Assembly: GCF_012911895.1 (NCBI RefSeq)
Contig: NZ_JAAXCV010000022.1
Span: 186,001-250,000, forward strand
Direction: 5' to 3'
Length of the DNA: 64,000 nucleotides
Origin: Bacillus sp. RO3
Lineage (GTDB): Bacteria > Bacillota > Bacilli > Bacillales > Bacillaceae_B
Shown: one piece after another, positions 1 to 13,459 of the stretch
Position numbering within the stretch: the first letter of the stretch is position 1
Layout of the letters: every line of letters begins with the position of its first letter
The notes under the pieces: generated by a model
The model's input: only the letters and a program-made list of their open reading frames with translations
What the model was told of the DNA's origin: nothing
Databases searched by the model: none
Position numbers and translations under genes: made by a program

Positions 1-159
1 ATGATTCAGTATCCACTTACGATGATCGCACTGTTTCCTTTGAGTTGTTTAGTTGGATACTCCAGAGTGGTTCTAGGGGTACATTATCCTTCAGATGTGA
101 TTGCAGGGGCGTTGCTTGCCTTCTCCACCAATTTGCTGGTTCTTTTGTTTATTTCATAA
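1..159 (+). CDS. PAP2-family phosphatase, C-terminal end (5' truncated by window)
   Basis: This is the last 52 codons of a gene that enters from the left edge. The visible protein holds the third phosphatase signature of the PAP2 superfamily, SRVVLGVHYPSDVIAG, where the His and Asp belong to the catalytic set, followed by a hydrophobic C-terminal membrane segment ending in LLVLLFIS. Family members remove phosphate from membrane lipids such as undecaprenyl pyrophosphate or phosphatidylglycerol phosphate. The substrate cannot be read from this fragment. The ATG at the first base is inside the domain and is probably not the start. The gene ends 35 bp before the glycosyltransferase and may be cotranscribed with it. 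Confidence 0.8.
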   Translation: MIQYPLTMIALFPLSCLVGYSRVVLGVHYPSDVIAGALLAFSTNLLVLLFIS

Positions 160-194
160 ACCATTAGAATTCCCTGTAGAGAGGAGACGTTTAC

Positions 195-1343
195 ATGCGT
201 GTGGCATTGTTTTCAGATACTTACTACCCCCAGGTGAACGGCGTCGCAAGGACGTTAAAAAGGTTGACGAATTATTATGAAGAAAAGGGGATCCAATATA
301 AAGTATTTATACCCGATCTTCAAGAGAAGAAAGGGGATTATCCCAATGTACATTCCTTCACCAGTTTTCCTTTTTTGTTTTATCCAGAATGCAGGACAGC
401 TATTGCAAATCCCAAAATGATTGAAAAACAGGTGCGGGATTTTTCTCCTACCTTGATTCATGTCACCACACCCCTGACAATGGGCCTTTACGGGGTGCGT
501 TGTGCAAAGAAGATGAATATCCCTCTGGTCGCGTCTTATCACACCCACTTTGACCTGTACTTGAACTATTATAAAATGATGTGGGTGGCGCCGTTACTTT
601 GGAAATACATGAAATGGTTCTATTCCCATGCGGATCGGATTTTTGTACCGTCTGCTGAGACGAAACTTCATCTGGAGAATCATGGATTCACCGATTTGTC
701 CATATGGAGCAGAGGGGTGGATTGTAAAACCTATTCGCCGGCTAAGCGCAATCTTCAATTAAGGAAGGAAATCCTTAATGATGAAAAGAAATATATTTTC
801 CTGTATGTAGGAAGACTGGCTCCAGAGAAGGATTTGGATACACTCGAAAAGACGATTAAATACCTCCCTCAAAAACTAAAGGATCAGGTTAAGTGGGTAA
901 TTGTAGGAGATGGTCCCATGAAGAATGACCTGATGGAAAGAACAAAAACGGAAGATGTGGTCTTTACAGGGTACGTAACGGGAAATGAATTATCAGAATT
1001 ATATGCTTCCTCAGACCTGTTTGTATTTCCATCAGCTTCAGAAACGTTCGGCAATGTGGTACTTGAGGCATTTGCATCAGGTTTACCGGCTGTGGTGGCT
1101 GATAAAGGAGGGGTTACAACGATTGTTGACCACGATCAGACTGGAAGAATAGCTGAAGCCCATCGGTATCAATCTTTCATTCATCATATTGAAGAGATAG
1201 TAAAGAAGGATCATCTTAATAATATGAAAAAAAATGTTCTTCAAATGGCCGAAGAACAGTCCTGGGACCGGATTTTTGATCAACTCATATCGGATTTCCG
1301 TGAAGTATGTTTTTACGCCAATCAGAGTCAAATGTCAGGTTGA
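195..1343 (+). CDS. GT4-family glycosyltransferase (mannosyltransferase-like)
   Basis: A 382-residue GT-B fold glycosyltransferase. The N-terminus reads ALFSDTYYPQVNGVARTL, the usual opening of GDP-mannose-dependent alpha-mannosyltransferases and glycolipid glucosyltransferases. YVGRLAPEKDL near residue 204 opens the nucleotide-sugar domain, and ETFGNVVLE is the EX7E motif near residue 280 that binds the donor. There is no signal peptide, so it acts at the inner membrane face. The ribosome binding site AGAGGAG precedes the ATG. The neighbouring PAP2 phosphatase suggests a lipid or cell-envelope glycan substrate, which is inference. The exact sugar and acceptor are not readable. Confidence 0.8.
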   Translation: MRVALFSDTYYPQVNGVARTLKRLTNYYEEKGIQYKVFIPDLQEKKGDYPNVHSFTSFPFLFYPECRTAIANPKMIEKQVRDFSPTLIHVTTPLTMGLYGVRCAKKMNIPLVASYHTHFDLYLNYYKMMWVAPLLWKYMKWFYSHADRIFVPSAETKLHLENHGFTDLSIWSRGVDCKTYSPAKRNLQLRKEILNDEKKYIFLYVGRLAPEKDLDTLEKTIKYLPQKLKDQVKWVIVGDGPMKNDLMERTKTEDVVFTGYVTGNELSELYASSDLFVFPSASETFGNVVLEAFASGLPAVVADKGGVTTIVDHDQTGRIAEAHRYQSFIHHIEEIVKKDHLNNMKKNVLQMAEEQSWDRIFDQLISDFREVCFYANQSQMSG

Positions 1344-1378
1344 AGGTTACCGTTCCCACCTGCCTGAAAGAGGTGTCG

Positions 1379-1403
1379 AGGATCTGTGAAAGATCCTTTT
1401 TTT
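1379..1403 (+). terminator. Rho-independent terminator after the glycosyltransferase
   Basis: The stem AGGATC/GATCCT with loop TGTGAAA is followed by a run of seven T. It lies 35 bp past the stop codon. It ends just before an ATG at 1405, which argues against using that ATG as the start of the next gene. Confidence 0.8.
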
Positions 1404-1467
1404 AATGAGCTATTCTATCCAGAGGGACAAGTTCATAAACTATAGGAAAGGAAAGGAGATGGCAGCA

Positions 1468-1923
1468 ATGGATGATTTCAAGAATGATTTCGGAGACCTG
1501 ACAGATCGGGCAACCGGGCAAATGCTACATAATTTAATAGAAAGAAAACAGAAGTTTGATAAAGCCAAAGTATTGCATCTCTATATCTTGTGGACAACTA
1601 TGCTTGCCAGCTTCTTTTTTCTCTATTATGTAACAAAATTTGTGATCGGACCTTATTCATATTCGTTTGCAGCGATGTTTTCTGTATTTGTATCAAGTTC
1701 TTTTCATGTGTTTATCACGATGATTCTTGCAGGACTGTTCGGTGCTACAAAAATCTTATATGAAAAAAAAGAGAAAAAAGAGAAAGAATATCATGCATTA
1801 AGGTGTGAAATCATCGATAGAAGCAAAGATTTATGGAAAGAAGAAGCGTGGAAAAAAAGGCATCATGTTTACCAAAAAATGAAGAAAGATTGGGATATCA
1901 ATTTGTTTCATGCAAGTAAATGA
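1468..1923 (+). CDS. ypbF: YpbF family membrane protein (DUF2663)
   Basis: A 151-residue membrane protein of unknown function. Two hydrophobic segments (about residues 37-60 and 67-95) are followed by a very charged tail rich in KEKKEKEY and tryptophan. The start at 1468 is chosen because AAAGGAG lies 9 bp upstream; the longer frame from 1405 begins directly against the preceding terminator and has no ribosome binding site. Size, topology and place between a metabolic cluster and ypbG/mecB match B. subtilis YpbF. No catalytic motif is visible. Confidence 0.7.
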   Translation: MDDFKNDFGDLTDRATGQMLHNLIERKQKFDKAKVLHLYILWTTMLASFFFLYYVTKFVIGPYSYSFAAMFSVFVSSSFHVFITMILAGLFGATKILYEKKEKKEKEYHALRCEIIDRSKDLWKEEAWKKRHHVYQKMKKDWDINLFHASK

Positions 1924-2021
1924 ATGGAACAACTGGCTTGTTGAGCGTGAGTTGACATGATGATTGATTCCTTTCAGCTTTAAAGCTCCCAGACATAGAA
2001 AAGAACGAACTGTAAATAAAT

Positions 2022-2060
2022 AACCCATTCTTTTGCTGATTGTCGCAAGAAGGAATGGGT
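2022..2060 (-). terminator. Likely terminator of the cotJ operon
   Basis: An inverted repeat with outer arms ACCCATTC and GAATGGGT lies just beyond the cotJC stop codon. Read on the minus strand it is followed by a TATTTATTT tract. The inner part of the stem has an internal loop and the T-run is broken, so termination strength is uncertain. Confidence 0.5.
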
Positions 2061-2079
2061 CCGGTCTCGTATCCTATTA

Positions 2080-2649
2080 TTAAAAAAACATTTTTTTATC
2101 TCGTTCGTCCTTAAGGATTTCAACTGCTTCCCGGAAGCGCTGGGAGTGAATGATTTCCCTCTCCCTTAAAAAGCGGAGGCCATCGTTCAGGTCTGGATCG
2201 TCACTCATATTGATTATCCATTGATAAGTGGCCCTTGCTTTCTCCTCTGCCGCAATATCTTCATATAAATCAGCGATGGGATCCCCTTTAGCAGCAATAT
2301 AGGATGTGGTAAAAGGAACACCGGCGGCATTTTGATAAAAGATCGCACCGTCATGATTGACATAATGGGGATCAAGACCTTCGTCCTTCATCTGCTGTGG
2401 TGTTGCATCTTTAATCAACTTATATACCATCGTTGCGATCATTTCCAAGTGAGCGAACTCCTCTGTACCTATATCCGTTAACAGTCCAATGACCTTGTCT
2501 GGGATGGTATAACGTTGATTGAGATATCTCAGGGCAGCGGCAAGTTCTCCATCCGCACCACCGTATTGTTCAATCAGGAATTTCGCCAGTTTAGGATTGC
2601 AGCTGCTGACCCTGACGGGATATTGTAGTTTCTTCTCGTAAACCCACAT
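2080..2649 (-). CDS. cotJC: Spore coat protein CotJC, manganese catalase-like
   Basis: A 189-residue ferritin-like protein of the dimanganese catalase family. Metal-ligand type motifs are visible in the helices: TDIGTEEFAHLEMIATMV around residues 61-78 and REREIIHSQRF near residue 165. CotJC is made in the mother cell and is an inner spore coat or forespore-surface protein; catalase activity is inferred from the family. It is the last gene of cotJABC, 22 bp after cotJB, with AAGGAGG about 10 bp before the ATG. Its length agrees with Bacillus CotJC. Confidence 0.93.
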   Translation of the reverse strand: MWVYEKKLQYPVRVSSCNPKLAKFLIEQYGGADGELAAALRYLNQRYTIPDKVIGLLTDIGTEEFAHLEMIATMVYKLIKDATPQQMKDEGLDPHYVNHDGAIFYQNAAGVPFTTSYIAAKGDPIADLYEDIAAEEKARATYQWIINMSDDPDLNDGLRFLREREIIHSQRFREAVEILKDERDKKMFF

Positions 2650-2671
2650 ACATTCTGCACCTCCTTATTGA

Positions 2672-2932
2672 TTATACTTGCCATGGCCAAGGAGCATCCT
2701 TCCAATCCCATGGATAATTTGAATAACTGTACCCAAAATTGGTCAAAGGACCAAATTCCTTTTCGAATTTCTTTTTAATCTGTTTTCTTGTTTTCATGTA
2801 CATATTGTATTGAGAGATTGCATCATAATCTTCAGGATGTGTATCCAGGTAAAGCGTTAGGTCGAGAATCACGAAATCAACGGACTGTAATTCTTCCAAC
2901 ACTTCATAATAATGTGGGGGCACCTGTTTCAT
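2672..2932 (-). CDS. cotJB: Spore coat protein CotJB
   Basis: An 86-residue protein with the CotJB pattern: PPHYYEVLEELQSVDFVILDLTLYLDTHPED at the start, then YNMYMKTRKQIKKKFEKEFGPLTNFGYS and a Trp/Pro-rich end (YPWDWKDAPWPWQV). The first stretch is described in pieces here because CotJB proteins are recognised mainly by these blocks. It is the middle gene of cotJABC, 5 bp from cotJA, with GGGAGAG upstream of the ATG. It is needed with CotJA and CotJC for coat assembly; the biochemical role is unknown. Confidence 0.9.
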   Translation of the reverse strand: MKQVPPHYYEVLEELQSVDFVILDLTLYLDTHPEDYDAISQYNMYMKTRKQIKKKFEKEFGPLTNFGYSYSNYPWDWKDAPWPWQV

Positions 2933-2937
2933 GTCTT

Positions 2938-3162
2938 TTACTCTCCCTTCATCTTTTCATAGGGGCTGTAATAGGGATCGTAAAACACTTTCCATAAAGT
3001 GCCCTTTTGTAATGCTTCTTTTGGTGAGTATTGCTCCAGATTAGGGGGTTGAAATCCTAGGTATAGATTAGGAGGTGTTGAATATACCTTTCGTGTAATG
3101 GGCTTGCAAGGATCAAATGGACTTACATAAGGATAATACGATTTATAATATTCATTCACCAT
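2938..3162 (-). CDS. cotJA: Spore coat protein CotJA
   Basis: A 74-residue Pro/Tyr-rich protein carrying the family block YVSPFDPC, then PPNLYLGFQPPNLEQYSPKE and GTLWKVFYDPYYSPY. The open frame runs further upstream, but the ATG at 3162 has a perfect AGGAGGGA site and gives the length expected for CotJA. First gene of the leftward cotJABC operon. A sigma-E-like promoter lies about 35-60 bp upstream, consistent with mother-cell expression. Confidence 0.9.
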   Translation of the reverse strand: MVNEYYKSYYPYVSPFDPCKPITRKVYSTPPNLYLGFQPPNLEQYSPKEALQKGTLWKVFYDPYYSPYEKMKGE

Positions 3163-3193
3163 AATCCCTCCTTCATAGAAAATCCTTCGTAAC

Positions 3194-3222
3194 AACATAT
3201 GAAGAAGGTAAATGGAACATGT
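3194..3222 (-). promoter_or_regulatory. Putative sigma-E promoter of cotJABC
   Basis: On the minus strand the sequence ACATGTT, 14 bp, CATATGTT resembles the sigma-E consensus (KMATATT, 14 bp, CATACAHT) with a few mismatches. The spacing is exact and it lies 32 bp upstream of the cotJA start. In B. subtilis the cotJ operon is known to use sigma-E; its use here is inference. Confidence 0.5.
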
Positions 3223-3309
3223 TAAATAATTTTCATTCACAAGAATGAAGGAAAATTGACTGGAAATGTCGAATAAATAGACGTAGGATACTAATAAAGA
3301 GGTGGTCAA

Positions 3310-3945
3310 ATGTTTGTTAAAAGTGCCATGATACCAAAGCATAAATGTTATGTGGTAGATGAGAATGATTCAATCGAAAAGACCCTAACAGTATTGGAAC
3401 ATCACAAGATTGATGGAGTGCCTGTACTCTCAGGTGAAGAATTTAAAGGGGTCGCAACCCGCTACAATATCTATCAGAGCTTTTTTCTTTCTGGAATGGA
3501 TAAGGAAGCCTTTCTAAAAGAAAGAAAGGTTCGTGATATTATTGCAGGTACTGACAAATATATAACCGATAAAGAAGTATTCGAAAATGCATTGGTAGAA
3601 TTAAAGGATTCACCGATCCTTCCAGTTGTGGAAGACAATCATAAGTTCCTGGGATTGATTACTCGCTTTGATGTACTCGACCAGTTCCGGAGTGCTTTTG
3701 GTATGGATCAAAAGGGAGTCCGAATCGCATTTTCTTCAGTGGAAACGGAAGGCCGGATTGCACGTCTCGGGGACATCATCCAGCAGTTCTCTGAATCGGT
3801 TATATCCCTTGTTACGTTTGATGAAACCGATAAATTGTTAAGGCGCATCGTCTTAAAAGTTGAAAAGAAGGATAATATCGACAAATTTCTAAATAAGTTG
3901 GAGAAATCAGGATTCCGCATCCTCGATATTCAGGAAGATGAATAA
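3310..3945 (+). CDS. CBS-CBS-ACT domain protein (AcuB-like)
   Basis: A 211-residue cytoplasmic protein. Two CBS motifs are visible: MIPKHKCYVVDEND through HHKIDGVPVLSGEE (about residues 7-50) and a second ending DSPILPVVEDNHKFLGLITR (about residues 80-115). A C-terminal ACT-like region begins near residue 138 with EGRIARLGDIIQQFSES. This CBS-CBS-ACT order is that of AcuB. CBS pairs usually bind adenosine nucleotides and ACT domains bind amino acids, so a sensor role is likely, but ligand and partner are unknown. AGAGGTGG precedes the ATG. Divergent from cotJ. Confidence 0.75.
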   Translation: MFVKSAMIPKHKCYVVDENDSIEKTLTVLEHHKIDGVPVLSGEEFKGVATRYNIYQSFFLSGMDKEAFLKERKVRDIIAGTDKYITDKEVFENALVELKDSPILPVVEDNHKFLGLITRFDVLDQFRSAFGMDQKGVRIAFSSVETEGRIARLGDIIQQFSESVISLVTFDETDKLLRRIVLKVEKKDNIDKFLNKLEKSGFRILDIQEDE

Positions 3946-3968
3946 TTGATTGAAACCCTGTATGAAAT

Positions 3969-4007
3969 AAAATCCCTCTCATAAGATTTATGGGGGGGAT
4001 TTTTTTG
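3969..4007 (+). terminator. Strong terminator hairpin overlapping the next gene's RBS and TTG start
   Basis: A 16-bp stem (5' arm 3969-3984, 3' arm 3988-4003, loop GAT) containing two G-T pairs is followed by T residues up to 4006. The 3' arm contains GGGGGGGA, which is also the only good ribosome binding site for the following membrane protein, whose TTG start uses the last two T of the run. Transcripts arriving from the CBS gene should stop here or hide that site. Confidence 0.75.
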
Positions 4008-4388
4008 ATCAATGTTATTGGTAAACTGATTACTTCGTTTATTTTGGGGTATCTATTCATTAAATGGTTCCCAGGAGAAAAACTGCTGAACAGTCCCGAA
4101 TTCATTGTGGAGTTAGTCTTAAACCCGGTCCCATTCTTTGCTTCAATGATGTCCTTAATGGTAGGGCTGATGGTCCAGGGAAATTTACTGAAATTTGAAT
4201 TCGATGTCATTCTAAAGTTAAGTCGTGGTAAACTACATAAAGGTTTAGTCGTCATCCCTTTTCATATTGTGATCATCTATTTATTAAGCTGTCTCGGGAT
4301 GTGGCAGACAATGATTTTTTCATTTTTATCCTTTTTCTATGGTATCATTTCTATAGATTTTCGCCGACAAGGAGGCCATAATGCTTGA
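4005..4388 (+). CDS. Small integral membrane protein, unrecognised
   Basis: I do not recognise this 127-residue protein. It has about four hydrophobic segments, starting with a Gly/Ile/Leu-rich one (ITSFILGYLFIKWFPGEK) and ending with FSFLSFFYGIISIDF, then a short charged tail RRQGGHNA. The TTG at 4005 is preferred over the ATG at 3990 because only it has a ribosome binding site at a proper distance (GGGGGGA, 5 bp). That site lies inside a terminator stem. The stop codon overlaps the ypbG start by 8 bp, so the two are translationally coupled and probably act together. Confidence 0.6.
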   Translation: MINVIGKLITSFILGYLFIKWFPGEKLLNSPEFIVELVLNPVPFFASMMSLMVGLMVQGNLLKFEFDVILKLSRGKLHKGLVVIPFHIVIIYLLSCLGMWQTMIFSFLSFFYGIISIDFRRQGGHNA

Positions 4389-5145
4389 ATTAGGTGCATT
4401 TATAGTAGCGGGGGGAGTCTTGCTCCTCTCTTTCATGCTGTATGAAGCGCATAGGGACGTTGTAAAGATCCAAAAAGTGAAGCTTCATGATTTTCCTGAT
4501 CATCTGAAAGGTCTTTCGATCTTTTTTATTTCTGATATACATAAGAGGAGAGTTTCCAAAGAACTGATGGAAGAGGTGAAAGGCAAGGCCGACCTGGTCA
4601 TAATTGGAGGGGACCTCCTGGAAAAAGGGGTGCCATTTTCAAGGGTTGAAGAGAATCTTGACAATCTCCTTCAGATAGGAAATGTCTATTTTGTTTGGGG
4701 CAATAATGATTATGAGAGTAACACCGACAGGTTGAGGCAGATTTTTAAGGAGAAGGGAATTATAGAAATCGTAAATGACTGTACGAGGATTGCTGTACAT
4801 AATGGGATGTTCAACCTGATTGGAGTGGATGATGACAGTACGCAAAGAGCATGCTATCCCTCTTCCATAGAAAAAGCTTCCCCAGATGAATTTAATCTTT
4901 TAGTGACTCATGATCCCGGACTTGTGAAGCAGGTACGAAAAGAAGATGGAATTGACCTCGTGTTGAGTGGTCATACACATGGGGGACAAATTCGATTGTT
5001 CGGCTGGGGACTGTATAAAAAAGGAAGACTTGAAAAACTTCCACAGACCACCCTATTAGTAAGTAATGGTTATGGAACAACGGCCCTGCCACTGCGTCTC
5101 GGAGCACCTGCCGAGACTCATCTATTGATAATCGAAAAAGAATGA
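4381..5145 (+). CDS. ypbG: Membrane-anchored metallophosphoesterase YpbG
   Basis: A 254-residue calcineurin-like phosphoesterase. An N-terminal hydrophobic helix (about residues 5-21) anchors it. The metal-binding motifs appear in order: SDIHK (Asp52, His54), GGDLL (Asp78), WGNNDYE (Asn108), VTHDPG and GHTHGGQ. The GNND block is a small variant of the usual GNHD/E. It matches B. subtilis YpbG in domain and position between ypbF and mecB. Substrate unknown; related enzymes hydrolyse phosphodiesters or lipid pyrophosphates. It overlaps the preceding membrane protein by 8 bp. Confidence 0.85.
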   Translation: MLELGAFIVAGGVLLLSFMLYEAHRDVVKIQKVKLHDFPDHLKGLSIFFISDIHKRRVSKELMEEVKGKADLVIIGGDLLEKGVPFSRVEENLDNLLQIGNVYFVWGNNDYESNTDRLRQIFKEKGIIEIVNDCTRIAVHNGMFNLIGVDDDSTQRACYPSSIEKASPDEFNLLVTHDPGLVKQVRKEDGIDLVLSGHTHGGQIRLFGWGLYKKGRLEKLPQTTLLVSNGYGTTALPLRLGAPAETHLLIIEKE

Positions 5146-5156
5146 ATGGACATTCG

Positions 5157-5187
5157 TTACTCATTACCTATACAAAGTTTACACAAA
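5157..5187 (+). promoter_or_regulatory. Putative LitR/CarH-type operator: 11-bp-spaced direct repeats
   Basis: Two octamers fitting nTnnACAn start at 5168 (CTATACAA) and 5179 (TTACACAA), exactly 11 bp apart, and a weaker third (TTACTCAT) starts a further 11 bp upstream at 5157. The last one overlaps the -35 box of the promoter in front of the LitR/CarH-like gene. From memory, CarH of Thermus binds three such 11-bp-spaced repeats over its own promoter. Binding here is inference. Confidence 0.5.
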
Positions 5188-5206
5188 ACAGTTTCTCGAT
5201 TATAAT
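5178..5206 (+). promoter_or_regulatory. Sigma-A promoter of the LitR/CarH-like gene
   Basis: TTTACA (5178-5183) and a perfect TATAAT (5201-5206) are separated by 17 bp, the ideal spacing for sigma-A. The transcript would begin near 5213, 28 bp before the ATG at 5241. The -35 box lies within the direct repeats described as the putative operator. Confidence 0.75.
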
Positions 5207-5240
5207 TTTAGAGAGAAGAGAATTACTTGGGGGACTATTG

Positions 5241-6152
5241 ATGAGCAACCAAAAGAAATCAGAAGGTAAATATAATATAAAAGCTGTGTCCACAATCTTA
5301 GGGATTCAGCCAGGTACTCTAAGGGCTTGGGAGAGAAGATATCAGATCATTGCTCCTGTCCGAAATGAATCTGGTCATCGTCTGTATACAGAACAGCATT
5401 TAAACATATTGAAATGGCTTGTCGAAAAGGTGGATCAGGGATTTACCATCAGTCAAGCAGTCTCGTTATTAGATAAACAAGAGCTTGAAGAAAATGAGAT
5501 TTCAGCCACTGAACAAAAGGACCGCACTCAGACCATTTCAGATGATCTGTTAAAGGCGCTGTTAAGCTTTGATGAAACAAAAGCTCATGAATTGATTAAC
5601 CAGTCATTTGCTGTTTATACGATTGATAAAGTGGTAATCGATATCCTCGGCAGTTTATTGGTAAGAATCGGGGATTTATGGGAGAACGGTAAAATAACAA
5701 CGGCCCACGAGCATTTCGCCACATCGATCCTCAGATCCAGGATTGGCATCATCATGCACTCCTTCCCCCATAATGGGATCTTACCAAAGGTTGTAGCGGT
5801 GTGCGGTCCAGGCGAATGGCATGAATTAGGTTTGTTAATCTTTACATTATATGTGAGAAGAAAAGGATTTGAAGTCATCTATTTAGGCTCAAGTATAAAA
5901 GAAAATGACATAGATGTTGTACTGGACGAAGTGGATCCTAAGTTTTTGTTCTTTTCATGTACCCTTAGGGAGAATGTAGACAACCTTCTGTCACTTGTTG
6001 CTACTTTAAAAGATGAACGGCAAGGTGTTGAAATCGGAATCGGAGGATTTGCAGTTGATCACCTCCCAAGAGAAAAGAAAGAGGAATTCGAGGAACACAT
6101 TGTCGGACAAACTAAATCTGATTGGGAACTTTGGCTGAAAAGTAAATTATAA
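5241..6152 (+). CDS. LitR/CarH-like MerR-family regulator with cobalamin-binding domain
   Basis: A 303-residue regulator. Residues 10-80 are a MerR-type winged helix (YNIKAVSTILGIQPGTLRAW, then the wing NESGHRLYT). Residues 100-180 form the helical cap of B12 sensors and contain the W-x9-EH signature, Trp147 and Glu157-His158. Residues 183-300 are a Rossmann-type B12-binding domain with Glu192-x-His194-x-x-Gly197, the cobalt-coordinating motif. This is the architecture of the AdoCbl-dependent light-responsive repressors LitR and CarH. The start at 5241 follows TTGGGGGA; the longer frame begins inside ypbG. No carotenoid genes lie nearby. Position 148, next to the Trp, is Glu rather than the His used in Thermus CarH for the light-adapted state. 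Confidence 0.8.
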   Translation: MSNQKKSEGKYNIKAVSTILGIQPGTLRAWERRYQIIAPVRNESGHRLYTEQHLNILKWLVEKVDQGFTISQAVSLLDKQELEENEISATEQKDRTQTISDDLLKALLSFDETKAHELINQSFAVYTIDKVVIDILGSLLVRIGDLWENGKITTAHEHFATSILRSRIGIIMHSFPHNGILPKVVAVCGPGEWHELGLLIFTLYVRRKGFEVIYLGSSIKENDIDVVLDEVDPKFLFFSCTLRENVDNLLSLVATLKDERQGVEIGIGGFAVDHLPREKKEEFEEHIVGQTKSDWELWLKSKL

Positions 6153-6223
6153 GCAGATTATGCACTGTTTTCTGCCCCTCACATAGTATGGTCATAAATC
6201 GTCACACTCTGGGGGGTACGAAA

Positions 6224-6808
6224 ATGAAGCTGGAAAGAATTGCTGACAACAAAATAAAATTTTCAATAAGCGTCGAAGAATTAGAGCAAAAAGGCTTATT
6301 CGAACAAGACCAATGGAAGGATTCCTATATGTGGCATGATCTTTTTGAAGACATGCTAGACGAGGTCCAGGGGAAGTTCGGAATTGAAACACAAATGGAA
6401 ATCACAGTGGAAATTGAATCTTTTGATGAACAGGAAATATGCATGATCCTCACATTAGAGTCAGAAGAGGACTTTTCTGATTGGGAAGATGACCATAAAA
6501 TCATGAAGTCCATCAATGACCATGATGTGCTCGTTTATTTTGATGATTTTGAATATATGCTGGACCTCCTTAAACGCATGAGGGAATCGAACAAAGTGAA
6601 TCATTCCCTTATACAGTTAAGCATATATTACTACAATCATAACTATTACTTACTTATTGAAAATCTGGTTGAAAGTGAAGGCAAAATCTTAGAGGCTATT
6701 TGCAGTGAATACGGTGAGCGTACAAAACTCTCCAAGCACGTCCTCATGGAATATGGCCGTGCTATCCTACTAAAGGATTCCATCGATAAGATTTTGTTTT
6801 ATTTTTAA
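6224..6808 (+). CDS. mecB: Adaptor protein MecB (YpbH), MecA paralog
   Basis: A 194-residue acidic protein of the MecA/YpbH family, adaptors that deliver substrates to the ClpC/ClpP protease. The N-terminus MKLERIADNKIKFSIS and the block DLFEDMLDEVQGKFGI are typical, as is the C-terminal ferredoxin-like part with the Tyr-rich YYYNHNYYLLIE that contacts ClpC in MecA. The ATG at 6224 follows TGGGGGG and gives the same length as B. subtilis YpbH. Its position next to ypbG supports mecB rather than mecA. Substrates cannot be read from sequence. Confidence 0.88.
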   Translation: MKLERIADNKIKFSISVEELEQKGLFEQDQWKDSYMWHDLFEDMLDEVQGKFGIETQMEITVEIESFDEQEICMILTLESEEDFSDWEDDHKIMKSINDHDVLVYFDDFEYMLDLLKRMRESNKVNHSLIQLSIYYYNHNYYLLIENLVESEGKILEAICSEYGERTKLSKHVLMEYGRAILLKDSIDKILFYF

Positions 6809-6870
6809 ACCAAATAGGATCTACCTGAACATTACCCCCTTTCAGATATTAAGGAAAATAATTCATATTG

Positions 6871-6904
6871 CACTTCCAAGGTGCTGCCTGGAGGTGTTTT
6901 TTTA
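6871..6904 (+). terminator. Terminator after mecB
   Basis: Stem CACTTCCA/TGGAGGTG (one T-G pair) with a 10-nt loop is followed by eight T. Confidence 0.8.
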
Positions 6905-6927
6905 TTTTCGTCATGTGGCTGAGATTC

Positions 6928-7199
6928 CTACCCAAGCCCTTCCGCTTTTCATTGATCCAGCTCCGAGGCTTAGAGGCTCGAGGTCATAAGTCAAACCTAC
7001 CAAAAAGGCAAAAAACGCCTTTCCGGTAGGTTCGTCTTATGCTTGTCGCCTCTACCCAAGCCCCTCCGCTTTTCATTGATCCAGCTCCAGGGCTTAGAGG
7101 CTCGAGGTCATAAGTCAAACCTACCAAAAAGGCAAAAAGCGCCTTTCCGGAAGGTTCGTCTTATGCTTGTCGCCTCTACCCAAGCCCCTCCGCTTTTCT
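6928..7199. repeat. Tandem structured repeat: truncated tail plus two 124-bp units
   Basis: Units start at 6951 and 7075, exactly 124 bp apart, and differ at only a few positions; a 24-bp tail of a further unit precedes them (6928-6950). Each unit folds into one long hairpin: GGCTT/AAGCC, AGAGGC/GCCTCT, CATAAG/CTTATG, AACCTACC/GGTAGGTT and AAGGC/GCCTT around the loop. A diverged version with the same folding lies at 57066-57270. The repeats fill the mecB-gudB gap after the mecB terminator. The open frames here are by-products. Similar intergenic repeats exist in other Bacillus genomes as I recall, but I cannot name the family. Confidence 0.85.
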
Positions 7200-7247
7200 T
7201 GTATGATAGCGTTTTCAAAAAAATCCTCTATTTTTACTTTTCCTTCT

Positions 7248-7275
7248 TTGCAAGTAGAATTCAAACGTGTATACT
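7248..7275 (+). promoter_or_regulatory. Putative sigma-A promoter of gudB
   Basis: TTGCAA (7248-7253), 16 bp, TATACT (7270-7275), with a TG two bases before the -10 box. It is 60 bp upstream of the gudB start and downstream of the repeats. Confidence 0.5.
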
Positions 7276-7335
7276 ATGTCATGAAAGCGGACTAGATTCC
7301 GTTAAACAGTGAAGTATTTCGGGAGGTTTACATAT

Positions 7336-8613
7336 ATGGTAGCCGATAAGGGGAAAGAAAATCACCAGGCATCTGATCAACATGATGTATTGAAATCGAC
7401 ACAAACGGTTATTCATCTTGCACTTGATAAATTAGGTTATTCACAGGAAGTATTTGAACTATTAAAAGAACCTGTACGCATGTTAACAGTTAAAATACCA
7501 GTCCGTATGGATGATGGAAAAGTAAAAGTTTTCACGGGATACCGTGCACAGCATAATGATGCAGTTGGACCGACAAAAGGTGGGATCCGCTTTCACCCTA
7601 ATGTTACTGAGAAAGAAGTAAAAGCCCTATCTATATGGATGAGTTTGAAATGCGGGATCGTGGATCTTCCATATGGCGGAGGAAAAGGCGGGATCATCTG
7701 TGATCCAAGAGATATGTCATTTAGAGAGCTTGAGCGATTGAGTCGTGGGTATGTCAGGGCAATCAGCCAGATTGTTGGACCTTCTAAAGATATACCTGCA
7801 CCGGATGTTTTTACAAACTCTCAAATCATGGCGTGGATGATGGATGAATACAGCCGGATAGATGAGTATAACTCCCCTGGATTTATTACTGGTAAGCCAT
7901 TGGTTCTAGGCGGTTCCCATGGTCGTGAGACAGCGACTGCAAAAGGCGTGACGATTTGCATCCATGAAGCAGCGAAGAAAAAAGGGATCAAGCTGAAAGG
8001 GGCCAGGGTGGTTGTTCAAGGCTTTGGCAATGCAGGGAGCTTCCTTGCGAAATTCATGCATGATGCGGGAGCAAAGGTGATTGGAATTTCAGATGCCTAT
8101 GGCGGCCTTCATGACGAAGATGGTCTGGATATCGATTACCTGTTGGATCGTCGCGACAGTTTTGGCACGGTGACCAAGTTATTTAACAATACCATCACCA
8201 ATGAAGAACTATTGGAGCTTGATTGCGATATCCTTGTACCTGCAGCCATCGAAAATCAGATTACAGAAAAGAATGCACATAACATCCGGGCGAGCATTGT
8301 GGTGGAAGCTGCAAACGGTCCGACTACACTGGAAGCTACAAAGATTTTGACTGAACGTGGGATTTTATTAGTGCCTGATGTACTGGCATCTTCAGGTGGA
8401 GTGACGGTGTCTTACTTTGAATGGGTACAAAATAATCAAGGGTATTATTGGTCTGAAGAAGAAGTGGAAGAGAAGCTTGAAAAGATTCTCATTAATTCAT
8501 TTAATAATGTATATGAAACTTCCCAGTCCAGAAGAGTTGACATGAGACTTGCGGCATATATGGTAGGCGTAAGGAAAATGGCAGAAGCATGCAGATTCAG
8601 AGGCTGGATTTAA
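7336..8613 (+). CDS. gudB: NAD-dependent glutamate dehydrogenase (GudB/RocG type)
   Basis: A 425-residue catabolic glutamate dehydrogenase that converts glutamate to 2-oxoglutarate and ammonium. Motifs include the substrate region [14 protein letters not shown], the catalytic-Lys block YGGGKGGI, and the nucleotide-binding [12 protein letters not shown] near residue 225. GITGK-like [20 protein letters not shown] is intact. There is no sign of the 9-bp duplication that inactivates gudB in the B. subtilis 168 strain. The start at 7336 follows GGGAGG; the first nine codons of the longer frame lack a site. The position beside ypdA is that of gudB. Confidence 0.92.
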
Positions 8614-8920
8614 TACAGATAAAGGATGAGATGGTTGACCTCTCATCCTTTTTTTAATAGTGAAAAGTTGATTAAAGTTTGAAACAATCAGGGCTTAATA
8701 AATGAGCACGTACCATCTCATAAATAAAGAAATACCTGTATCAGTCCATAATTTCAGATGCTACATGAAATAATAGGAGAATAAGGGAAAAATATTGAGT
8801 GCTTCCTTTTGACCAAAACACAATAGTATTCCATAATAATTAGATAAAGAAAATCTTAACATCTGAAATGCCAAAACGTAAGTCACCATTCAGATAGAGG
8901 AATTGAAGGAGTGTCTGAAT
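8614..8920. other. gudB-ypdA intergenic region
   Basis: This 307-bp gap holds the gudB terminator at its left end and the AAGGAG site of ypdA at its right end. The A+T-rich middle contains two near-matching words, TTTCAGATG near 8750 and its inverse near 8860, but no clear gene, promoter pair or RNA structure that I can support. Confidence 0.5.
8621..8655 (+). terminator. Terminator of gudB
   Basis: An 11-bp perfect stem (AAAGGATGAGA with TCTCATCCTTT) and a 9-nt loop are followed by T residues to 8655. Confidence 0.9.
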
Positions 8921-9886
8921 TTGAAAATGGAAGAATGCATCATTGTTGGTGGGGGACCATGCGGGTTGTCCGCTGCGATCAATTTAAAAGAAAAGGGAAT
9001 CAATCCCTTGATCATTGAAAAAGGGAATATCGTAAATGCCATTTACCATTATCCCACTCACCAAACGTTTTTTTCATCCAGTGAGAAGCTGGAAATTGGG
9101 GATGTCCCATTTGTTATTGAAGAGCATAAGCCTCGACGGAATCAAGCACTTGTCTACTACCGGGAAGTCGCGAAAAGGAAGGAATTAAGGATCAATCGAT
9201 TTGAAACTGTTCAAAAAGTCGAGAAGAAGGCAGACCATTTTACGGTTGTCACTTCGAAAGGAACCTATGAGAGTAAATCTATTGTGATAGCGACAGGTTA
9301 TTATGACAACCCCAATTATTTAGGGATTCCAGGGGAGAAGTCGGAAAAAGTATTCCATTATTTTAAGGAAGCACATCCTTTTTTTGACACAGATGTAGTG
9401 GTCATCGGCGGAAAGAATTCAGCCGTTGATGCAGCCCTTGAATTGAATAAAGCTGGAGCAAGGGTGACCGTGATCTATCGTGGAAGTGAGTATTCAAAAA
9501 GTGTGAAGCCCTGGATCCTGCCGAACTTCGATGCCCTTGTCAGAAACGGCGAAGTAACGATGGAATTTAACTCATATGTACATCAAATCACAGAGGATTC
9601 TGTCCTATATAGTGTGGATGGTGAGAAAAAAGTAATCAAAAATGACTTTGTGTTTGCGATGACTGGATATCACCCTGATCATAGTTTTCTTACGAAAATG
9701 GGGATAGATATAGATCAAGAAACCGGAAGGCCTTTTTATCATCCTGAAACGATGGAAACCAATGTAGATGGTGTATATATTGCCGGGGTCATCGCTGCAG
9801 GAAATAATGCAAATGAAATTTTCATTGAGAATGGACGTTTGCACGGTGGATTGATTGCGGAAGCCATTACATCTAAAGTGAAATAA
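8921..9886 (+). CDS. ypdA: Bacillithiol disulfide reductase YpdA (Bdr)
   Basis: A 321-residue flavoprotein. The FAD-binding motif CIIVGGGPCGLSAA is at residues 5-18 and includes the conserved Cys proposed to take part in catalysis. IVIATGYYDNP is the ATG motif, VVIGGKNSAVDAA near residue 165 binds NADPH, and VYIAGVIAAGNNANE closes the FAD site. The family reduces oxidised bacillithiol with NADPH. The TTG at 8921 is chosen because AAGGAG lies 9 bp upstream; an ATG two codons later is possible. bshA and bshB1, which make bacillithiol, are about 42 kb away in the same window. Confidence 0.9.
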   Translation: MKMEECIIVGGGPCGLSAAINLKEKGINPLIIEKGNIVNAIYHYPTHQTFFSSSEKLEIGDVPFVIEEHKPRRNQALVYYREVAKRKELRINRFETVQKVEKKADHFTVVTSKGTYESKSIVIATGYYDNPNYLGIPGEKSEKVFHYFKEAHPFFDTDVVVIGGKNSAVDAALELNKAGARVTVIYRGSEYSKSVKPWILPNFDALVRNGEVTMEFNSYVHQITEDSVLYSVDGEKKVIKNDFVFAMTGYHPDHSFLTKMGIDIDQETGRPFYHPETMETNVDGVYIAGVIAAGNNANEIFIENGRLHGGLIAEAITSKVK

Positions 9887-9928
9887 CCAAAGAAAGAGGC
9901 TCATCACTAGAGCCTCTTTCTTTGGTTA
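9884..9928. terminator. Long inverted repeat between convergent ypdA and ansA
   Basis: A perfect 19-bp inverted repeat (9884-9902 with 9910-9928, loop ATCACTA) begins in the ypdA stop codon. Its arms are T-rich at the 3' side on each strand, so it can serve as a terminator for both genes, although no pure T-run follows. Confidence 0.7.
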
Positions 9929-9950
9929 TAGATAGGTTAAAGGCTTTCCT

Positions 9951-10928
9951 TTAGTTTTTGAAAATCGATTCAAGTTCCTTCATGTCACTGGTTTGGGAAA
10001 GAGCGACCATCAGCTTGATCCTGGCTTTTTGGCCGTTAAGGCCGTTTGAGAAGATGACCCCTTTTTCTTTCAGTTGTTTACCCCCTCCGGAATAGCCGTA
10101 GATGTCCTGGACAATTCCGTTAAAACATCTTGATACTAATACAACGGGAATATTCGCTCTTAAAAGTTCATTGATTCCCATCACTGTATCGGGTGGAAGA
10201 TTTCCTTGCCCTAATGCTTCAATGACAACCCCGTCGTATTGCAAGTCTTTAATGGCGATCAATAGACCTGAATCCATCCCGGCATATGCCTTGATTAATG
10301 TGACTCTCTTCGAAATATCACAAACCTGATAGTGTTCATTTGACGTTGGCTGATGATGGAAGAGAACCCCTCGTTTCGTTACAATCCCGATTGGTCCATA
10401 CTGAGGACTTTGGAAGGTTGAAACGTTACTTGTATGAGTTTTTGTTACATTTTTAGCCGAATGGATTTCGTCATTCAGGACGACCAGAACGCCTTTGTGT
10501 TTAGATTTTTCTTCTGCTGCAACACGAACGGAAGATATGAGGTTGTACAACCCGTCTGCACCAATTTCATTACTGGATCTCATTGCTCCCGTCACGACAA
10601 GGGAGACAGGAAGAGAGAGGGTAAGATCCAAGAAATAGGCGGTTTCTTCCAACGTATCCGTTCCGTGAGTGATCACGACACCATCAAAGGGATTATCCTT
10701 ATATTTTCTTTCAATGATCTCTTTCAGTTGTTTCATATGCTCCGGTGTAATATGGGGAGAGGGGAGATGGAATGCTTCTACAACTGTCAGGTTTGCTATA
10801 TTTGAGACAATCGACGTTTGTACTGAGAGCGGATTTTCCTTCCCGGGAGTTACCGCCCCTGTTTGCTCGTCTTCCATCATAGAGATGGTGCCTCCAGTAT
10901 GTATGACCAATATATCTTTCTTCATCAT
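9951..10928 (-). CDS. ansA: L-asparaginase
   Basis: A 325-residue asparaginase that hydrolyses asparagine to aspartate and ammonium. Both catalytic threonine motifs are present: HTGGTISM near residue 11 and VVITHGTDTLEETA near residue 85, the latter carrying the Thr-Asp pair; a conserved Lys follows in the region GAMRSSNEIGADG. No signal peptide, so cytoplasmic. GGAGG lies just upstream of two adjacent ATG codons; the second has better spacing. Transcribed leftward, convergent with ypdA and divergent from prsW. Confidence 0.9.
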   Translation of the reverse strand: MMKKDILVIHTGGTISMMEDEQTGAVTPGKENPLSVQTSIVSNIANLTVVEAFHLPSPHITPEHMKQLKEIIERKYKDNPFDGVVITHGTDTLEETAYFLDLTLSLPVSLVVTGAMRSSNEIGADGLYNLISSVRVAAEEKSKHKGVLVVLNDEIHSAKNVTKTHTSNVSTFQSPQYGPIGIVTKRGVLFHHQPTSNEHYQVCDISKRVTLIKAYAGMDSGLLIAIKDLQYDGVVIEALGQGNLPPDTVMGINELLRANIPVVLVSRCFNGIVQDIYGYSGGGKQLKEKGVIFSNGLNGQKARIKLMVALSQTSDMKELESIFKN

Positions 10929-11015
10929 TCATTCCTCCAACCAATTAAATTCCTGTTTCCATTCCTACCTTATCATGATACGATTAAGAAAACCGAAAGA
11001 AAAGAGGACTTTTTT

Positions 11016-11702
11016 ATGCTGGTGATTTTATCAGCGGGTATAGCACCAGGATTAGCATTGCTAAGTTACTTTTATTTACGGGATGAATATGAGGCAGAGC
11101 CTATTACACTAGTGTTCAAGACCTTTATGTACGGCGCACTTATTACGTTTCCTATAATGTTCTTACAGTATGTGTTAGAAGTGGAAGGGGTCATTAATAC
11201 AAATTGGTCGACGGCATTTATTTCTTCCGGACTTTTTGAGGAATTCTTTAAATGGTTCATTTTAATGTTCGCGATCTTTCAACATGTTCATTTCAACGAG
11301 CCTTATGACGGAATCATTTATGGAGCCAGTGTATCACTGGGATTTGCCACAGTTGAAAATATTTTGTATTTGGTTGCCAATGGAGTTGAGCATGCATTTG
11401 GAAGAGCGGTCCTTCCGGTTTCAAGTCACGCATTGTTTGGTGTCATTATGGGATATTATTTAGGGAAAGCCAAATTTTCTTCCAAAGAAGAAAGACAGAA
11501 GTGGCTTTTCATTGCGATTTCTGTACCCATCCTGCTGCATGGGACATATAACTACATCTTTCTATCTGGTAATAATTGGATATACTACATGATTCCATTT
11601 ATGTTTTTCCTATGGTGGAATGCTTTAAAGAAAGTGAAGAGTGCCCATCGTCTAACAGAAAAGAAATATACAGATGTGGATTTAGAGAAAGAAATTGTTT
11701 GA
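11016..11702 (+). CDS. prsW: Site-1 intramembrane protease PrsW
   Basis: A 228-residue polytopic membrane protease. The key motif EEFFK (Glu75-Glu76) and two further conserved histidines, SSHALFG (His138) and LLHGTYNY (His175), place it in the PrsW/CAAX-protease-like group. In B. subtilis PrsW makes the first cut in the anti-sigma factor RsiW in response to antimicrobial peptides and envelope stress, releasing sigma-W. rsiW is not in this window. The ATG at 11016 is preceded by AAGAGG; the longer frame starts inside ansA and lacks support. Neighbourhood beside ypdA and sleB agrees. Confidence 0.9.
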   Translation: MLVILSAGIAPGLALLSYFYLRDEYEAEPITLVFKTFMYGALITFPIMFLQYVLEVEGVINTNWSTAFISSGLFEEFFKWFILMFAIFQHVHFNEPYDGIIYGASVSLGFATVENILYLVANGVEHAFGRAVLPVSSHALFGVIMGYYLGKAKFSSKEERQKWLFIAISVPILLHGTYNYIFLSGNNWIYYMIPFMFFLWWNALKKVKSAHRLTEKKYTDVDLEKEIV

Positions 11703-11705
11703 AGG

Positions 11706-11732
11706 ACGCTTTCTTTTTGAAGCGTTTTTTTT
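11706..11732 (+). terminator. Terminator of prsW
   Basis: Stem ACGCTT/AAGCGT with an 8-nt loop is followed by eight T, directly after the stop codon. Confidence 0.75.
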
Positions 11733-11830
11733 GTTATGGTTTTAGCTAGGCTGGGACATGGTTAAGTCCACTAGATACACAGCAGTTGATTTCCGTAGAG
11801 ACTTCGCTTTCTGCTGGAACAGTACAGATT

Positions 11831-11889
11831 AAAAAATCCGAACGCACTCGACCTTCAATTGGAATTTCGAGTGTCCGTTCGGATTTTTT
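11831..11889. terminator. Bidirectional terminator-like hairpin
   Basis: The arms AAAAAATCCGAACGCACTCG and its near-complement ending CGTTCGGATTTTTT form a stem of about 20 bp with one mismatch; A-run and T-run flank it. It would end the leftward unknown gene at 11920 and any read-through from prsW. The bases before it (11748-11800, beginning GGCTGGGACATGG) look like part of a dispersed intergenic element. Confidence 0.75.
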
Positions 11890-11919
11890 ACTAAACATTC
11901 TTTCCAAGTCTAGTCCGGC

Positions 11920-12267
11920 CTACTTGTAGGCGGCAGCAAGATCAGTTTTGGGTGCCTCTTTCCGCTTCACTTCATCAATTTTATTCACAAACATTTGAAA
12001 CACTTTTCTTTTTTCATCCAACTCTCGTATGTATTCTTTCAATTCATTGTACTTCTCTTCGAAAGGCTTGTGATACATTTCCCTGATATTATCGATGATT
12101 TCCTCATTCACTGTGGATTGTATGACTTGTTTTGTTATCCCGTACTTATACGAATACACTTTTAGTTCCTTCTTTATCTCTTCGTAATCAGTGTTAATCT
12201 GATCCAAGACCTCTGAAATATCATCTTTCCATTCATCTAATGACTTTGCTACATAATCCTCCATCAT
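11920..12267 (-). CDS. Small cytoplasmic coiled-coil protein, unrecognised
   Basis: I do not recognise this protein of 115 residues (114 if the second ATG is used, which has better spacing from GGTGAGG). It is highly charged and almost wholly helical, with heptad-like stretches such as LDQINTDYEEIKKELKV and EEKYNELKEYIRELDEKRK. There is no membrane segment or signal peptide. It is alone on the minus strand between prsW and sleB and ends in its own terminator. Codon use resembles its neighbours. Function unknown. Confidence 0.7.
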   Translation of the reverse strand: MMEDYVAKSLDEWKDDISEVLDQINTDYEEIKKELKVYSYKYGITKQVIQSTVNEEIIDNIREMYHKPFEEKYNELKEYIRELDEKRKVFQMFVNKIDEVKRKEAPKTDLAAAYK

Positions 12268-12595
12268 AACCTCACCTTCCGATTCCGGATCTTATAGAAA
12301 GAATCTTCATTTTATTATACCTTTTGATGGTTACAATGCTTTTGCTGATTCATTACAGTGTTTTATCAATATTTTTGTCCCTATTTTAGGTTTATCCAGC
12401 CATAACGAATGAAGCCATGCGGTCATCAGCGAGTCCGCTCAAAAAGTCACAAGGGGTCTTTCCGTCAAGGTTTCCCGAGTGTTTGTTACCTTGTCAAGCT
12501 CGTACTTCCGACTTTTTATGATTCACTTGTATAAAATGGGAGCCACTACAAAAACTAGGGTTAATGTTAATTAGAGATATGGAGGTTAAAGCATT
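12268..12595. other. Divergent intergenic region upstream of sleB
   Basis: This 328-bp gap separates the leftward coiled-coil gene from sleB. It contains an imperfect inverted repeat, AAAAAGTC (12441) with GACTTTTT (12510) and inner CAAGG (12466) with CCTTG (12489). A weak sigma-G-like pair, GTATA at 12529 with AAAACTA at 12551, lies 40 bp before sleB; sleB is a sigma-G gene in B. subtilis, but the match is poor. GGAGG at 12581 serves sleB. Confidence 0.4.
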
Positions 12596-13459
12596 ATGAA
12601 TAGCCGTTTCAAATTGATTTCAACTTCAGTCGTCATGGTGCTTATGTGCTCTCTTTTTATGATTTCCTCAGAAGGAGAGAAGGCAGACGCTTTTACAAAT
12701 CAGGTGATACAGCATGGGGCGACAGGTGAGGATGTAATTGAGCTGCAATCGAGACTGCAGTATATCGGATACTATAATGGTGATATCGATGGAGTGTTTG
12801 GGTGGGGTACATATTGGGCTCTCAGAAACTTTCAATATGAATTCGGCCTAACCATTGATGGCCTGGCTGGACCTGAAACAAAAGAAAAACTGGTGAAAGC
12901 TTCAAAGTACAATAAGCAATTCGTGAAAAAACAAATCGAAAAGGGAAATGAGTTCAGTCACTATGGCGGAACAGACTTAAGTAAACAGAAAGCTCCTGGT
13001 GATGGGGGAGCCAAAGGGAAAGCCGGTGAGCAAGCCGCTCCAGGGAAGGCTGAATCAAAACCGACCCCATCAAAACCGACAGCAGTGAATACTCCTAACG
13101 GGTTCTCGCAAAATGATATTCAATTGATGGCAAATGCTGTATATGGAGAGGCGCGGGGAGAGCCGTATGAGGGGCAGGTCGCAGTTGCGGCAGTCATTCT
13201 CAATCGAATTGACAGCTCAGCATTTCCCAATACGGCGGCAGGAGTCATTTTTGAGCCGGGTGCCTTTACAGCTGTTGCTGATGGACAAATTTGGTTAACA
13301 CCAAATGAAAAAGCGAGAGAAGCGGTTTTGGATGCCATTAACGGCTGGGATCCCTCTTCTAGTGCACTCTATTACTTTAACCCTGTGACAGCAACAAGTA
13401 AGTGGATATGGTCACGTCCACAAATCAAAAAAATAGGAAAGCACATATTCTGTAGTTAA
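12596..13459 (+). CDS. sleB: Spore cortex-lytic enzyme SleB
   Basis: A 287-residue germination enzyme that breaks cortex peptidoglycan containing muramic-delta-lactam. A signal peptide covers about residues 1-32 (ending ADA). A peptidoglycan-binding domain follows (QHGATGEDVIELQSRLQYIG, about 39-100). A Lys/Pro/Gly/Ala-rich linker spans 131-165, and the catalytic hydrolase_2 domain runs to the end, with Glu185 in AVYGEARGEP as the expected catalytic acid. GGAGG precedes the ATG. It is followed 14 bp later by ypeB, its obligatory partner. Made in the forespore and exported to the inner membrane-cortex interface. Confidence 0.94.
   Translation: MNSRFKLISTSVVMVLMCSLFMISSEGEKADAFTNQVIQHGATGEDVIELQSRLQYIGYYNGDIDGVFGWGTYWALRNFQYEFGLTIDGLAGPETKEKLVKASKYNKQFVKKQIEKGNEFSHYGGTDLSKQKAPGDGGAKGKAGEQAAPGKAESKPTPSKPTAVNTPNGFSQNDIQLMANAVYGEARGEPYEGQVAVAAVILNRIDSSAFPNTAAGVIFEPGAFTAVADGQIWLTPNEKAREAVLDAINGWDPSSSALYYFNPVTATSKWIWSRPQIKKIGKHIFCS

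Follow-up and report, generated by a model that had tools for sequence, protein, structure and literature searches.

The four 11-bp repeats that lie before a carH/litR-like gene in the DNA analysed here (the window, 64,000 nucleotides of Bacillus sp. RO3) very probably constitute the operator at which a repressor of the class I LitR/CarH type, with coenzyme B12 bound, silences its own sigma-A promoter, with release in light and with co-regulation of a carotenoid (crt) operon and an mgsR-like gene. What we read from the sequence in support of this is the gene family, the cofactor motifs, the repeats, their spacing, their overlap with the promoter, their conservation, the sites shared with other genes, and the adenosyltransferase genes of the genome.

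In the proposed scheme, AdoCbl-bound CarH would tetramerise on the repeats in the dark, its DNA-binding domains lying along one face of the DNA at about one per helical turn, and with the last repeat placed over the -35 box RNA polymerase would be excluded. Light, from UV to green, would break the Co-C bond and loosen the oligomer, and carH would then be expressed together with the carotenoid operon and the mgsR-like gene of the Spx family. For AdoCbl binding, the tetramer, dark binding, light release and the direction of regulation, the scheme follows studied homologues: the passages on Thermus and B. megaterium CarH in two papers describe an AdoCbl tetramer that sits on the repeats in the dark and excludes the polymerase, and light that cleaves the Co-C bond (PMC8156234; PMC9758184).

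The repeat array and the promoter of carH

Four octamers, read directly from the window, stand in 11-bp phase on the forward strand at 5146, 5157, 5168 and 5179. The first unit (ATGGACAT, 5146..5153) is a full match to nTnnACAn and directly abuts the TGA stop codon (5143-5145) of the upstream gene; the second (TTACTCAT, 5157..5164) is a pseudorepeat; the third (CTATACAA, 5168..5175) and the fourth (TTACACAA, 5179..5186) are full units again, and the fourth overlaps the TTTACA of the -35 box (5178..5183), from which a 17-bp spacer leads to the -10 box TATAAT (5201..5206). The array, in the order full unit, pseudorepeat, full unit, full unit, therefore spans the distance from the upstream stop codon to the -35 box. 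The initial annotation had pointed to two nTnnACAn octamers (5168 and 5179) and a weaker third (5157) at 11-bp steps reaching the -35 box, and all of this is present in the window; its count of three, however, missed the perfect, in-phase octamer at 5146, and the promoter that it called perfect, with boxes and spacer correctly given, matches the consensus in 11 of 12 letters.

The carH chain holds 15 of the 16 defining letters. When the 200 bp before carH were subjected to dinucleotide shuffling (n = 3000), the maximum was 13/16, attained six times, and none of the shuffles reached 14. Within the 64-kb window, no chain of at least 14/16 other than that of carH occurs at 11-bp spacing, and none occurs at spacings of 7-10 and 12-16. 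Published passages on CarH operators give the unit as nnnnTnnACAn, with three or four repeats over the -35 or -10 boxes (PMC9304148; PMC8156234). A CarH operator, taken as at least three tandem 11-bp nnnnTnnACAn units over the -35 or -10 box with pseudorepeats allowed, is found before carH. The CarH-type layout proposed at the outset has thus held up, in that the protein family, the motif, the spacing, the -35 overlap and the conservation agree with one another and the unit and operators in those published passages are alike (PMC9304148, PMC8156234). The repeats are probably the operator of carH's own product, which would switch carH off in the dark.

The CarH-like protein and its predicted cofactor

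The gene itself (5241..6152, forward strand), identified by Pfam, a solved-structure search and motifs, encodes 303 aa and starts at the ATG at 5241, which is preceded by a GGGGG stretch. Its product carries MerR_1, B12-binding_2 and B12-binding, all above the Pfam cut-offs, corresponding to an N-terminal MerR helix-turn-helix, a four-helix B12 domain and a Rossmann B12 domain, and the solved-structure search returned a near full-length match to Thermus CarH with E of about 1e-25. The Wx9EH motif is intact (WENGKITTAHEH), and the B12 motif, sought as D/ExHx2G/P-x41-SxT/V-x22-27-GG, is found as ExHx2G-x41-SxT-x26-GG, that is, EWHELG followed by a stretch of 41 residues and then one of 26 residues to GG. 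According to the relevant passages of one paper, photoreceptor CarH makes its adenosyl contact through Wx9EH, and CarH that depends on AdoCbl may be separated from CarA by having this motif intact next to the B12 motif (PMC9304148).

The NCBIfam CarH equivalog TransRegCarH (NF052513) is the top model for the protein, yet at 134.9 bits it stays far below its cut-off of 400. We regard the product as a putative class I LitR/CarH protein by its domains and cofactor motifs, and do not claim membership of the narrow NCBIfam set. Additionally, the same genome has three adenosyltransferase-family genes above cut-off, two of them strong, so the cell can probably convert cobalamin to AdoCbl. By analogy with CarH proteins already studied, the CarH-like protein would bind AdoCbl, bind DNA and be released by light.

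It is quite improbable that the site is real and bound but serves a regulator that answers the B12 level or redox rather than light, or one that activates. The photochemistry of the protein is carried over by analogy, and MerR-family proteins often activate, both of which count for such a reading; the intact Wx9EH, the adenosyl contact in photoreceptor CarH, argues against it, as do the overlap of the operator with the -35 box, the linkage with carotenoid genes described below, which suits light, and the spacer of the carH promoter, which at 17 bp is shorter than the 19-20 bp of promoters activated in the classical MerR manner.

Genomic neighbourhood

Upstream of carH lies a gene for a calcineurin-type phosphoesterase (4381..5145, forward strand) and downstream, after about 75 bp, one for a MecA-family adaptor (6224..6808, forward strand), both assigned by Pfam. 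The original placement of carH between ypbG and mecB is borne out as far as these two families go, the name ypbG itself being an earlier label, and the original remark that no carotenoid genes lie nearby holds for positions 1-13000 of the window, where the open reading frames were listed. Among 73 loci (L004-L033, L219-L261), a ypbG-like gene on the carH strand stands within the flank in 70 and a mecB-like gene in 67, so carH commonly occupies this location, which is no carotenoid cluster. An identical CarH protein (100%) occurs in Rossellomorea sp. AcN35-11 (L237). The gap between carH and mecB (6153-6223 in the window) is near-constant in the genus, at 72-78 bp in 27 of 27 loci (L004-L030), and a search of 4900-7400 gave no terminator-like site; mecB may therefore be co-transcribed with carH.

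Conservation of the operator across species

Among the 35 genus genomes searched, carH is present in 33; the two without it, G002 and G018, are without crtN and the mgsR-like gene alike. Loss of the repeats in relatives that keep the gene had been set beforehand as a test that could refute the operator, and the outcome is divided: the operator chain stands before 28 of the 33 carH genes, scoring 15/16 in 23 and 14/16 in 5, and is missing before the other five (G008, G009, G011, G028 and G033; CarH proteins 66-68% identical), where the scores are 9-11. In place of the repeats, these five species (L033-L037) have before carH a TTTACA..TGTAAA dyad that begins at the same kind of -35 box.

With each of the 28 operator-bearing promoters anchored on its own best chain, the T and ACA of unit 1 are invariant in 28/28, and unit 2 reads T-n-n-T/C-C-A in 28/28 and is a full unit in none, while the last A of TnnACA in unit 4 is altered in 5 of the 28. 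The major-letter frequency averages 0.984 for the defining letters versus 0.856 for the other operator letters. In other families of the order, 7 of 13 carH promoters score at least 13. The 80 carH loci collected divide into 43 (L219-L261) that entered the test, in part from genomes of the G set, and 37 (L262-L298), chiefly from Chloroflexota and proteobacteria, that did not; 17 of the 43 score at least 13, and all four units are perfect at carH of Priestia aryabhattai (L236).

Predicted targets: the carotenoid operon and the mgsR-like gene

The wider targets of the regulator, initially described as unknown, can now be predicted, since the crt operon and an Spx/MgsR-family gene bear the same repeats in the same genome. 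On contig C20 an antisense triple at C20:81450 stands 25 bp before a CrtI-family desaturase gene (crtN), over TATAAT, and the operon (L112) continues with a second desaturase and a squalene/phytoene synthase. The exact antisense triple recurs at 24 of the 31 crtN promoters in the genus, and at the other seven two exact units are joined by a third with a single mismatch. Beyond the genus, 9 of 10 crtN promoters have two or three exact units side by side; the tenth, in G047, is without repeats, and G047 is the only genome in the set with this crtN type but no carH.

The second triple, at C21:11843, lies 53 bp before the Spx/MgsR-family gene, whose upstream neighbour is a divergent gene resembling a helix-turn-helix regulator (L154). 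The name mgsR comes from the Spx/MgsR family model run on the G030 orthologue, to which the gene of the present genome is 74% identical, and in four congeners from the location between YqgX- and ComGA-like genes, judged by eye. Exact triples precede 33 of the 34 mgsR-like genes in the genus, the exception being G016, where the site is degenerate, the carH operator is kept and no desaturase was detected. In other families all of the mgsR-like promoters (7/7) carry the exact triple, one of them on the antisense strand. Across 26 genomes of other families, of which 13 have a close carH (at least 51% identity; G057 with 33% and G060 with 27% scored as absent), an mgsR-like gene of at least 50% identity occurs in 7 of the 13 with carH versus 0 of the 13 without it, a co-presence with a two-sided Fisher p of 0.005, not corrected for kinship. 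B. subtilis has mgsR but is not known to have carH, so the tie between the two is not absolute.

The five species with the dyad before carH have exact triples at their mgsR-like promoters (5/5), and the four of them that have crtN all show two exact units and a near-match third there, which suggests that the self-control of carH can be lost while control of the predicted targets persists. Furthermore, four genomes combine carH and an exact-triple mgsR-like operator with no detected desaturase, absence meaning none at E <= 1e-60 with one query and carotenoid-free status being defined by the desaturase: G013 and G009 belong to the genus, G037 and G043 to two other families. G009 is 84% complete and is among the five that have the dyad in place of the repeats at carH. 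G051 and G056 have carH but neither an mgsR-like gene (50% identity) nor a desaturase, and no credible operator stands before their carH (scores of 8 and 10). Of these findings, the persistence of the mgsR-like site without a detected desaturase is the one that the name CarH would least lead one to expect.

Sites elsewhere in the genome and the background of the motif search

In the genome as a whole we found four exact unit triples, and none with the reversed pattern as a control; carH is not among the four because its second unit is a pseudorepeat. Two of them are the crtN and mgsR-like promoters, and the other two (on C26 and C9) contain WalR pairs, TGTWAH-N5-TGTWAH, and were rejected as CarH targets. 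One-mismatch triples number 45 versus 33 in the control, and with so slight an excess the motif search alone cannot define the regulon. Over the 36 genomes examined genus-wide, exact triples amount to 120 and the reversed pattern gives 15; for four-unit chains allowing one mismatch or none, the figures are 137 and 8. Because Pho-, WalR- and other-type sites contribute to these totals, only sites tied to a gene were counted. Most simulated promoters of about 200 bp contain single exact units; three sets of 2000 yielded 15, 40 and 69 with two exact units in a row, and none of the 6000 had three in a row.

Crt, photolyase and B12 genes had been named at the start as candidates for the same repeats, and the genome-wide search upheld the first of these. 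The single member of the photolyase family in the genome was rejected with a best chain of 11/16 in the first 1600 bases of its locus, and the adenosyltransferase (B12) loci with best chains of 11-12/16. TTTACA/TTAACA repeats at 11-bp steps before a pstS-like gene, named by eye (L076, G000:C21:37416-37454), were likewise rejected as probable Pho boxes, and repeats of this Pho type can mislead searches for CarH motifs. Family C sites, which precede a DUF4397 gene, form four-unit chains but hold the dyad TGTACAAG..CTTGTACA and probably belong to another regulator; the dyad or a variant, conserved and also a four-unit 11-bp chain, is seen at L114:3311-3349 (DUF4397) and at L121:1708-1757 (sortase-like, by eye).

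The repeats before carH are very unlikely to be boxes of an OmpR-family response regulator, PhoP or WalR, even though these too bind direct hexamer repeats at 11-bp steps in Bacillus, the unit pattern also matches the repeats before the pstS-like gene, and WalR pairs underlie two further matches in the genome. The hexamers and the regulators differ: the PhoP box is made of TTnACA / TT(A/T/C)ACA-type repeats at 11-bp steps, and the carH hexamers, compared with it by eye, begin with TG, TA, TA and TA and never with the Pho-type TT. By the WalR consensus as given in the passages of one paper, TGTWAH-N5-TGTWAH (PMC4168254), no WalR pair lies in the carH promoter (5101-5240, both strands), the crtN promoter or the mgsR-like promoter. 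The crtN promoter of G047, a single case, is without repeats in a genome without carH. That the repeats arose by chance in AT-rich promoter DNA is a reading helped by a unit of just four fixed letters, of which single exact copies come easily; yet with no shuffle of 3000 at 14/16, with motif letters conserved above their neighbours and with the genus-wide excess of four-unit matches, Pho-type and other sites included, the probability of this is close to negligible.

Canonical spx and a stand-alone B12 protein

Upstream of canonical spx in the same genome lies a one-mismatch triple in inverse orientation, with two adjacent exact units on the antisense strand (L113, G000:C20:33301). In the spx promoters of 14 congeners (L368-L381), two adjacent exact antisense units were observed at about the same place in 11; the pair is elsewhere in L375, no pair is present in L379 and L380, and a third unit occurs in none. 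Canonical spx is a possible further target of CarH, and having two units only it was not counted.

We also observed a 216-aa protein (L050:4204-4854, G000:C27; L003:1486-2136) that has both B12 domains, the Wx9EH motif (WEKNQITVADEH) and EHHSLG, and is without a DNA-binding domain; its gene adjoins a 165-aa gene and a carbonic-anhydrase-like gene (by eye). Comparable matches, in frames of 184-260 aa, occur in 33 of 35 genus genomes, being absent from G002 and G018. No CarH-type chain was found in the 300 bp before the gene, the best scoring 10/16. The protein may serve as a stand-alone B12 light sensor.

Comparison with known systems

For B. megaterium, work from 2018 (JBC) reportedly showed that CarH represses its own gene and that an Spx-family gene is preceded by an operator of six repeats. 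By our own reading, the mgsR-like promoter of P. aryabhattai (L359) has six units; four of these are full and two partial, and they form one block of two and another of four. The CarH of this species (L236), from another genus, is 57% identical to the CarH described here. Compared with the six-repeat operator, the mgsR-like operator of the present genome has three exact units and a weak fourth; a further difference from B. megaterium is that all 28 operator-bearing congeners have a pseudorepeat as the second unit of the carH operator. The likeness to Bacillus (Priestia) megaterium CarH/LitR is nevertheless close, for this too is described, in passages of one paper, as a class I B12 photoreceptor with four 11-bp units, or three and a pseudorepeat, over the -35 or the -10 box (PMC9304148). 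Thermus thermophilus CarH shares the domain order, Wx9EH, the B12 motifs, the unit motif, the spacing and the -35 overlap, but its operator has three repeats, as against four here.

Four-repeat CarH operators are already known, and the present one is a further example, with a wider predicted regulon than first supposed. Among the literature matches listed, none joins MgsR, light and CarH, or CarH/CarHBm and Spx, in a search whose scope did not extend to the key B. megaterium and Thermus papers.

Implications

The conservation of the repeats shows which letters of the operator are protected by evolution. Together with the sites at the other two promoters, it offers a testable three-promoter light regulon in Rossellomorea, comprising carH, the carotenoid operon and the mgsR-like gene. 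The CarH-Spx link, reportedly seen in B. megaterium, is widened to 33 of the 34 mgsR-like genes in the genus and to all seven in other families. We put forward, tentatively and with less than even confidence, that the non-self target most stubbornly kept by CarH in the Bacillales may be an Spx/MgsR-family stress regulator and not the carotenoid genes, and that the photoreceptor's main role may be to feed light information into the thiol/general-stress programme, a role retained after loss of the pigments. The species that have the mgsR-like site and no detected desaturase would provide a clean route to the roles of B12-based light sensing beyond colour.
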